NCBI RefSeq assembly: GCF_032463525.1
Contig: NZ_CP135971.1
Location: forward strand, 3,534,001-3,598,000
Source: Pseudomonas sp. DTU_2021_1001937_2_SI_NGA_ILE_001
Lineage (GTDB): Bacteria; Pseudomonadota; Gammaproteobacteria; Pseudomonadales; Pseudomonadaceae
Length of the DNA stretch: 64,000 nucleotides
Reading direction: 5' to 3'
Program-made: the position numbers and the translations under genes
In this document: piece after piece, positions 16,697 through 18,910 of the stretch
Layout: every line of letters starts with the position of its first letter
Position numbering within the stretch: the stretch's first letter is position 1
The notes under the pieces: generated by a model
The model's database searches: none
Seen by the model: the letters and a program-made list of their open reading frames with translations, nothing else
Told to the model about the DNA's origin: nothing

Positions 16697-17042
16697 CGCG
16701 CGCAACAGATCATTCAGGCAAAACAATAACGGCGCCCAAGGGCGCCGTTATGCTATTTAAAATTGAAAGTTCACTTGCCGAACGGGAAATATATATTTAA
16801 AAATATTTCCAACCACCCCGAAGGTGATTGATACTTCTGCATGAAAACGGCTGCAATGGCCGGCCCTACGGGCCTGAACGCTGCGAATCAAGTAGCATGA
16901 GACTCAGTAATCAACACTAAGTTCCCCAGCCAAAACAATAACTTGGCGATTGTTGAAACAATCGTGTTATTCGTCGGATTGGCGTTGCCTGAATAAAAAG
17001 TTAATTGCACGATCGCGCCGTCATCCCTATGAGATTCCCCAC
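16697..17042. other. AT-rich intergenic region with two inverted repeats
   Basis: 346 bases without a gene. After the terminator at 16726-16751, an inverted repeat GGAAATAT (16785-16792) / ATATTTCC (16803-16810) flanks an AT-only centre. Another, CGATTGTT (16947-16954) / AACAATCG (16957-16964), is nested between AATAAC and GTTATT. Either could be an operator or leader hairpin of the glycine-zipper gene. Confidence 0.45.
16726..16757 (+). terminator. Intrinsic-type terminator after the YdeP-like gene
   Basis: A 12-bp perfect inverted repeat (ATAACGGCGCCC and GGGCGCCGTTAT) with a 2-base centre lies about 30 bases after the stop codon and is followed by GCTATTTA. The long GC stem supports termination; the T-tract is short. 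Confidence 0.7.
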
Positions 17043-17513
17043 ATGAAGTTCTCCTCGGTTCTTTTGTTGTCTCTTTCTCTCGTGACCGGTTCCGCCTTGG
17101 CGGGCAACCTGGAAGCGGGCGTTGGCGGAGCATTGGGCGGAGTGCTTGGCTCAGTCGTCGGCCAGCAAGTTGGCGGTAATACCGGTGCGGCCATTGGTGC
17201 CGGCCTGGGTGGTGCCGCCGGTGGCGCAGTCGGTGCCGACCGTCGTAACCGTACCGAAGCGGCGATTGGCGGTGGCCTGGGTGCCGCCGGCGGCAACGTG
17301 ATCGGCCGCAGCGTGGGCGGCAACACCGGCAGCCTGATCGGTGCGGCGGCCGGCGGCGGGGCCGGTGGCGCACTGGGCAACTATATGGGTAACGAGAGTC
17401 GTGACGACGACCGTCGCTACCGTGGCGGCCGTGACCATCGCGAATACCGTCATGGCCATGGCCCGCGCAAGCACGGTCATTACAAGCATGACCGCCACTG
17501 GCGTCATCGCTGA
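17043..17513 (+). CDS. Secreted glycine-zipper protein
   Basis: 156 residues. A clear Sec signal peptide (MKFSSVLLLSLSLVTGSALA) precedes a run of glycine-zipper segments (GGALGGVLGSVVGQQVGG, GAAIGAGLGGAAGGAVG and two more) typical of envelope-spanning small proteins. The last ~35 residues are rich in His, Arg and Lys. Probably periplasmic or outer-membrane-associated; no enzymatic function is suggested. The ATG at 17043 is the only start giving a signal peptide. A bidirectional terminator follows. Confidence 0.8.
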   Translation: MKFSSVLLLSLSLVTGSALAGNLEAGVGGALGGVLGSVVGQQVGGNTGAAIGAGLGGAAGGAVGADRRNRTEAAIGGGLGAAGGNVIGRSVGGNTGSLIGAAAGGGAGGALGNYMGNESRDDDRRYRGGRDHREYRHGHGPRKHGHYKHDRHWRHR

Positions 17514-18447: not shown

Positions 18448-18481
18448 CTCGGCAAAGTCAAAAATGAGAATCAATTTCATA

Positions 18482-18549
18482 TATAGCCAATGTCTTACAC
18501 GCCGAATGGCGATTTGGCTATTTGAAATACCCTGACGACTCTCTACTAT
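18482..18549 (+). promoter_or_regulatory. Promoter and GacA-type half-site of Rsm RNA copy 1
   Basis: A TTGAAA box (18522-18527) and TACTAT box (18544-18549) are spaced by 16 bases, a good sigma-70 promoter. A CTTACA half-site at 18494-18499 lies about 60 bases upstream of the predicted start, the position of the GacA upstream activating sequence (consensus TGTAAGN6CTTACA). The left half is poorly conserved. An 8-bp inverted repeat ATAGCCAA/TTGGCTAT (18483-18490, 18514-18521) brackets this region. Confidence 0.6.
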
Positions 18550-18556
18550 TGGATCC

Positions 18557-18673
18557 AATCCACTGACACGCAGGGAGCGCGTCAGGATCAGGGACGATCA
18601 ACCATTTGCCTGGATGCTACCGACAGGGAGTTGGATGGTTTTGGATACCCAAACCCGCTTCGGCGGGTTTTTT
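18557..18673 (+). ncRNA. rsmX: RsmX-like regulatory small RNA, copy 1
   Basis: Predicted transcript of ~117 nt, no open frame needed. Seven GGA motifs are present. The first hairpin exposes AGGGA in its loop (arms TGACACGC and GCGCGTCA); a second puts AGGGAC between GATC arms; CAGGGAG recurs near the 3' end. A CCCGC-TTCG-GCGGG stem followed by six T residues (18654-18673) is a strong intrinsic terminator. GGA-in-loop hairpins are the known binding sites of RsmA/CsrA, which RsmX/Y/Z sequester under Gac control. Assignment to RsmX over RsmY/Z rests on length and layout only. Confidence 0.82.
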
Positions 18674-18715
18674 CATGCCTGCAGAAAAATGCCCGTATGC
18701 CCGGGCGACGAGCGG

Positions 18716-18791
18716 TGTAAGCGAATAGCCAAAGGCTTACACGCGGTCGGGGGCAATGGCCATTTTCCGACTGCTAAAGCATGCCTATGAT
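18716..18791 (+). promoter_or_regulatory. Promoter and GacA-type site of Rsm RNA copy 2
   Basis: A TATGAT box (18786-18791) with a weak TTTTCC box (18763-18768, 17-base spacer) precedes copy 2. A CTTACA half-site (18736-18741) sits at the same distance from the start as in copy 1. Here a TGTAAG half-site also exists at 18716-18721 but is 14 bases away, not the 6 of the consensus. Confidence 0.55.
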
Positions 18792-18798
18792 TGGATCC

Positions 18799-18910
18799 AA
18801 CCACTGGCGAACAGGGAGTTCGCCAGGATCAGGGACGATCGACCATGCCAGGATGCTGCTGACAGGGAGTTGGAATGGTCTTGGCACAAACCCGCTTCGG
18901 CGGGTTTTTT
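18799..18910 (+). ncRNA. rsmX: RsmX-like regulatory small RNA, copy 2
   Basis: Predicted ~112 nt. It shares the blocks CAGGATCAGGGACGATC, GACAGGGAGTTGGA and the AACCCGCTTCGGCGGGTTTT terminator with copy 1. Six GGA motifs are present. The first hairpin is a perfect 8-bp stem (TGGCGAAC and GTTCGCCA) around an AGGGA loop; both arms differ from copy 1 in a compensatory way, strong evidence for a selected RNA structure. The terminator's last T residues overlap the stop codon of the convergent M48 gene by two bases. Confidence 0.82.

Follow-up and report, generated by a model that had tools for sequence, protein, structure and literature searches.

The 64-kb window of Pseudomonas DNA analysed here carries two tandem rsmX genes, which are very probably genuine GacA-activated genes whose RNAs would act as decoys that sequester RsmA/RsmE-type proteins. 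Both units are members of the Rfam rsmX family, both are preceded by the anatomy of a GacA-type upstream site, their structure covaries across relatives, and genes for their partner proteins are present in the genome. As this anatomy and these partners are the same as those in relatives, the pair is best read as sequestering RsmA/RsmE-type proteins. Transcription of the units, their dependence on GacA, protein binding by their RNAs and a dosage role for the pair are predicted. The pair represents a clean, structure-supported example of rsmX amplification.

The general regulatory cascade has been reviewed (PMC7366521). For P. brassicacearum, the tandem gene rsmX-2 is reported to be GacA dependent based on a Northern blot and a lacZ fusion, and its overexpression to restore gacA-mutant phenotypes (PMC7911923); for P. 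syringae, RsmX1 and RsmX5 are reported to be shifted by RsmA proteins in vitro (PMC6715622). In the window, GacA would act on the sequence TATAGC/AATAGC-N6-CTTACA, with CTTACA beginning some 65 bp upstream of each inferred start, and each RNA of ~112–115 nt would be switched on from its own promoter. Each RNA would display several GGA motifs in its hairpin loops and between its stems, bind RsmA/RsmE-type CsrA proteins and thereby free the mRNAs that those proteins repress. With two copies here, four in this genome, and RsmY and RsmZ in addition, the amplification would mainly provide more dosage, leaving the promoters free to diverge.

Family membership, upstream sites and structure of the two units

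The features of the pair are as follows:

18482–18499, plus strand: GacA-type upstream activating sequence of copy 1, TATAGCCAATGTCTTACA (from the sequence; layout of the published site)
18522–18549, plus strand: promoter-like TTGAAA-16-TACTAT of copy 1 (consensus scan; one found, 0.4 expected by shuffling)
18558–18673, plus strand: rsmX copy 1 (RF02144, 91.1 bits)
18563–18585, plus strand: hairpin 1 of copy 1, loop AGGGA, one A.C mismatch (fold and alignment)
18651–18673, plus strand: intrinsic terminator of copy 1 (from the sequence; stem paired in all aligned sequences)
18724–18741, plus strand: GacA-type upstream activating sequence of copy 2, AATAGCCAAAGGCTTACA (from the sequence)
18786–18791, plus strand: -10-like TATGAT of copy 2 (read from the sequence)
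18799–18910, plus strand: rsmX copy 2 (RF02144, 108.3 bits)
18804–18826, plus strand: hairpin 1 of copy 2, nine perfect pairs, loop AGGGA (fold and alignment)
18888–18910, plus strand: intrinsic terminator of copy 2, its final two bases shared with the stop codon of the convergent M48 gene

An earlier note on this DNA, made without database searches, had proposed two tandem RsmX-like small RNAs, and the covariance models bear it out. The search of the window with RF02144 (rsmX) placed both units on the plus strand well above the gathering cut-off of 56 bits (E = 1.2e-15 for copy 1 and 1.5e-19 for copy 2). Each covers positions 1–114 of the 114 of the model, copy 1 being the more diverged, and matching the family from end to end neither shows a difference that matters. 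By comparison of the Rfam rsmX, RsmY and RsmZ models both units are rsmX, and neither reaches the RsmY or RsmZ cut-off: the RsmY model (RF00195) gave copy 2 only 26.7 bits against a cut-off of 57 and did not list copy 1, and the sole match listed for PrrB/RsmZ (RF00166) was at C1:2168649-2168782, with none at the tandem units.

Direct repeats spaced 237–242 bp span the upstream site, hairpin 1, middle region and terminator of both units, in agreement with the period of about 242 bp and the coordinates given in the earlier note. Its estimate of six to seven GGA motifs per unit was likewise accurate, as seven were counted in copy 1 and six in copy 2 (three ANGGA in each), numbers that were reached in 13 and 249, respectively, of 10,000 base shuffles. 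The probable 5′ end of copy 1 is 18559, as judged from the TCCACTG start given for P. brassicacearum RsmX-2 (PMC7911923).

The upstream site of copy 1 reads TATAGC-N6-CTTACA and that of copy 2 AATAGC-N6-CTTACA; by sequence match, both elements resemble the published GacA site, TATAGCGAAACGCTTACA (PMC7911923). CTTACA occurs at four sites in the 64 kb, both strands counted, three of which are at this locus. In 44 of the 47 rsmX copies examined, CTTACA starts 62–64 nt upstream of the unit, and it is absent before the other three (G083_1, G135_1 and G178_1). The CTTACA half-site that had been placed about 60 bp upstream of each unit is really part of a fuller, two-part GacA-type site. As to each unit having its own promoter, the consensus scan found a sole sigma70-like pair, that of copy 1, and listed none for copy 2, for which only the -10-like hexamer TATGAT was read. 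An extra inverted half-site, TGTAAG, was observed opposite CTTACA before copy 2 (TGTAAG-N14-CTTACA, 18716–18741) and was not seen before copy 1.

The structural alignment comprised 46 of the 47 rsmX copies, 43 of them distinct, drawn from the window genome (the pair and the copies elsewhere), from a MAG (uncultured Pseudomonas sp.) and from 18 further genomes; G083_1, which lies at a contig edge and has a diverged 5′ part, was left out of the alignment and of the 46-row tree, and the eighth rsmX of genome G149 was not among the 47. In hairpin 1, standard pairs fill 348 of 372 cells (94%) and six of the nine pairs are changed on both sides, counts that are inflated by related sequences and favoured by a reference structure taken from one aligned sequence; in a control that keeps relatedness, sliding one arm by 1–2 columns reduced pairing to 26–38%. 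A GGA is present in the hairpin 1 loop of all 43 distinct sequences, the loops being AGGAA (14), AGGGA (9), AGGAU (8), AGGAC (6), AAGGA (3) and AGGA (3). Covariation around a fixed GGA loop, the pattern anticipated for an RsmA/CsrA-sequestering RNA, is thus found over the 43 distinct sequences, and two details of the earlier description are amended by it. The AGGGA loop, thought to be fixed, is common to both copies but occurs in only nine of the 43 sequences family-wide, GGA being the constant part, and the arms do covary, at six of nine pairs, but those of copy 1 include one A.C mismatch.

Hairpin 2 and the terminator stem are paired in every cell (344 of 344 stem cells for the terminator) and, because they are almost invariant, are little informative on covariation; with one arm slid, the repetitive arms of the terminator still allow up to 62% pairing. 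Hairpin 3 is paired in 195 of 215 cells with a single cell changed on both sides, and is therefore weakly supported, without covariation. The terminator of both copies is CCCGC-TTCG-GCGGG-T6, identical as had been claimed, although that of copy 1, which is plain in the sequence, was not listed by the consensus scan, probably because the stem search consumed part of the T run. The single-sequence fold of copy 1 differs from that of copy 2 in the middle region and, because of this and the A.C mismatch of copy 1, the two may be unequal decoys.

Tandem rsmX pairs in the genus and the order of the copies

The earlier hint that a tandem pair may be undescribed did not hold, since tandem rsmX pairs are tabulated for six strains, including rsmX-3/rsmX-4 of P. 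syringae DC3000 (PMC7911923 Table 1), and the pair is therefore a further example and not the first. In P. brassicacearum NFM421 and P. fluorescens F113, 211 and 213 bp separate the starts listed for the tandem rsmX-1 and rsmX-2, and in NFM421, as here, both genes have GacA sites, rsmX-2 being the one reported as GacA dependent (PMC7911923). The P. stutzeri pair rsmX-1/rsmX-2, at 239 bp, has nearly the spacing of the window (241 bp), which differs from the 292 bp between the starts of the tandem rsmX-3/rsmX-4 that P. syringae DC3000, B728a and 1448A have among their five rsmX (PMC7911923 Table 1).

Under stricter filters, by which weak matches are lost, rsmX was found over the cut-off in 116 of 199 Pseudomonas genomes, and among the matches listed there are 150 rsmX in 96 genomes. 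Tandem pairs, defined as two copies on one strand less than 350 bp apart, were found in at least 19 of the 199 genus genomes, that of the window included, with spacings of 216–314 bp. Ten proteins of the window neighbourhood, together with nine encoded next to the remaining two rsmX of the window genome, were searched for in the flanks of the 18 other pairs. Several window neighbours lie beside seven of these pairs (G018, G056, G066, G094, G149, G181 and G192), and in all but G018 they are on both sides of the pair, which is flanked upstream by the thioesterase or the 137-aa ORF and downstream by the orf147/orf301 genes or the M48 protease. For G018, the search found neighbours on the upstream side alone (FdhF-like gene, glycine-zipper gene and 137-aa ORF). 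The remaining 11 pairs have no window neighbours, or only weak lprI-/cynR-like matches, and are presumably where the fluorescens group belongs. Tandem rsmX loci are therefore present in at least two gene neighbourhoods, and they are not rare in the genus. Among the genomes that share some window neighbours, the pairs of G056, G094 and G192 have a spacing of 289–293 bp against the published 292 bp, a likeness in spacing from which we infer that the window locus may be the rsmX-3/-4 locus of P. syringae. Moll et al. 2010 is reportedly the source paper for that P. syringae pair.

The same pair is present in the MAG, beside a 99% identical M48 gene. Its copy 1 sRNA is identical to that of the window and its copy 2 differs at three bases, one of which produces a G.U pair and two of which change the loop from AGGGA to AGGAC. 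Among ten loci with homologues of the M48 protease, the MAG locus has rsmX beside the gene, and at the other nine (45–54% identity) the surrounding DNA examined contains no rsmX above the cut-off; the M48 neighbour is therefore no general marker of rsmX.

In the 46-sequence tree of promoter plus sRNA, copy 1 of the window and its twin in the MAG form a clade with G149_2 and G181_2, the second copies of those genomes (support 100/99). The clade of copy 1 with those second copies was also recovered in the 23-sequence trees, at 100/99 and, for the sRNA alone, at 95/96. A promoter-only tree joined window copy 1 to G149_2 (99/95) and not to G181_2, whose promoter is on a long branch. Topology tests, which used 23 of the 47 rsmX sequences, gave p-values that are optimistic because the pattern had been spotted in pairwise identities before the test. 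Positional orthology of the first copies was rejected with promoter and sRNA combined (p-AU 0.003), but the sRNA alone gave 0.063, above the 0.05 threshold; the corresponding values were 0.013 and 0.11 with the second copies held together, and 0.012 and 0.13 with the two window copies held together, as in a recent duplication. Orthology of copy 2 with G149_1 and G181_1 was neither supported nor rejected (p-AU 0.37 and 0.14).

The orientation of the pair relative to its flanking genes is the same in the window, G149 and G181. As copy 1 groups with the second, and not the first, copies of these two relatives, the copy order seems swapped with respect to them, more weakly so on the sRNA alone. 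Unequal exchange within a tandem array would permute copy order. The swap may be new; the listings of a literature search limited to open-licence papers gave no sign of it.

A Fur-box-like site and possible differences between the copies

One further element adjoins the GacA site of copy 1:

18460–18478, plus strand: Fur-box-like sequence AAAAATGAGAATCAATTTC, putative in function (14/19 to the consensus that we take to be that of Fur)

Scored against that assumed consensus, the match of 14/19 is the best in the 64-kb window, the next best being 12/19 at seven places. The 15-base core of the site, with up to three mismatches, finds 59 genome sites, some of them places counted twice owing to palindromy, compared with five for the reversed pattern, a rough control. 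Nine of 30 core loci were inspected and ten proteins from seven of them were searched, which revealed an FTR1 iron permease, a TonB receptor and an ECF sigma factor beside an AMP-binding enzyme near core sites, as well as a pyridoxamine-oxidase-like protein, a cytochrome oxidase subunit and four proteins without a match.

The copies could thus be specialised, with an extra iron (Fur) input to copy 1 and none to copy 2, so that different conditions would feed the same RsmA pool, although we consider this rather unlikely. In its favour are the position of the best Fur-box-like match of the window beside the copy 1 GacA site, the iron permease, TonB receptor and sigma factor near core sites, and a 12/19 match in the corresponding position upstream of the first copy of G018. 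However, the site matches the assumed consensus at only 14/19, G149_2 has only 10/19 at the same place, and the remaining rsmX upstream regions scanned reach 9–11/19 anywhere in 230 nt. In addition, the MAG in which the site is identical represents the same species or a very close one, and several of the core sites inspected have no evident iron link.

An extended version of this reading, which we likewise consider rather unlikely, would have copy 1 jointly controlled by GacA and Fur, copy 2 controlled by GacA only, and the pair permuted by unequal exchange, such that promoter input, and not position, would define the copies. Iron-loaded Fur at 18460–18478 would block the adjoining GacA site, and iron starvation would result in more RsmX from copy 1 alone, linking the entire Rsm regulon to the iron status of the cell. 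Should the Fur site prove real, the duplicated decoys would serve as separate sensors for one protein pool and not simply as dosage copies. The site is a lead and not a result; its location adjoining the copy 1 GacA site may be new, and the listings of a literature search limited to open-licence papers gave no sign of Fur input to rsmX.

It is very improbable that only one copy is functional and that the more diverged copy 1 is a duplicate in decay. Copy 1 does have the lower score (91.1 versus 108.3 bits) and a stem mismatch, and it is on a long branch together with its near-identical MAG twin; yet it retains a full upstream site, seven GGA motifs, a perfect terminator and the only sigma70-like pair. 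Moreover, the MAG carries the same copy 1 sRNA but has three base changes in copy 2, and the copy 1 type persists in two further genomes (G149 and G181). That the units are chance GGA-rich terminator hairpins with no sRNA-gene function is extremely unlikely in view of their covariance-model E-values (1.2e-15 and 1.5e-19), the covariation of hairpin 1 and the occurrence of pairs beside shared neighbour genes in relatives.

The Rsm system elsewhere in the genome and nearby RNAs

The partners expected of two genuine rsmX genes were identified in the window genome (5.66 Mb, two contigs). It contains four rsmX over the cut-off, namely the pair, C1:225897-226010 and C2:80313-80426, along with one RsmY (RF00195, 116.4 bits, C1:3242287-3242407), the one RsmZ mentioned above (103.7 bits) and three CsrA-family genes over the cut-off. 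Weak rsmX matches below the cut-off, one of which overlaps RsmY, were set aside.

Searches of mobile elements returned no match to the region in the plasmid collection and five records with short matches in the phage collection, all at the two terminators. A 17-base rsmX core was found at two loci in viral contigs, which were taken as chance because neither has an Rfam match at the gathering score.

One of the other rsmX of the genome, on contig C2, is downstream of genes of the curli type, recognised through Pfam matches to curlin repeats and CsgG, and of a gene that we take to be lprI-like (locus L009, 363–4427). This csgG/lprI place, with its single rsmX, matches a locus of G149 (L071, 2953–5074) where three rsmX units, in a 198-nt direct repeat that includes the promoter, bracket a small cargo consisting of a 184-aa ORF without a Pfam match and a ParE-like toxin with a RelB-like antitoxin. 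Judging from that locus, rsmX repeats may act as recombination points. G149 has eight rsmX over the cut-off in one genome; five rsmX are reported for P. syringae (PMC7911923, PMC7366521), and seven RsmZ and two RsmY for Azotobacter vinelandii (PMC7366521).

Two other Rfam RNAs were observed near rsmX genes. In locus L010 (5326–5415 and 4898–5011), the fourth rsmX of the window genome is ~0.3 kb from a match to the C4 antisense RNA (RF01695, 72.4 bits, cut-off 45). Within the window, the Pseudomonas sRNA P34 (RF02405, 70.9 bits, cut-off 44) was matched on the minus strand at 16728–17140, antisense across the start of a glycine-zipper gene, and it is also present at the MAG locus (L011).
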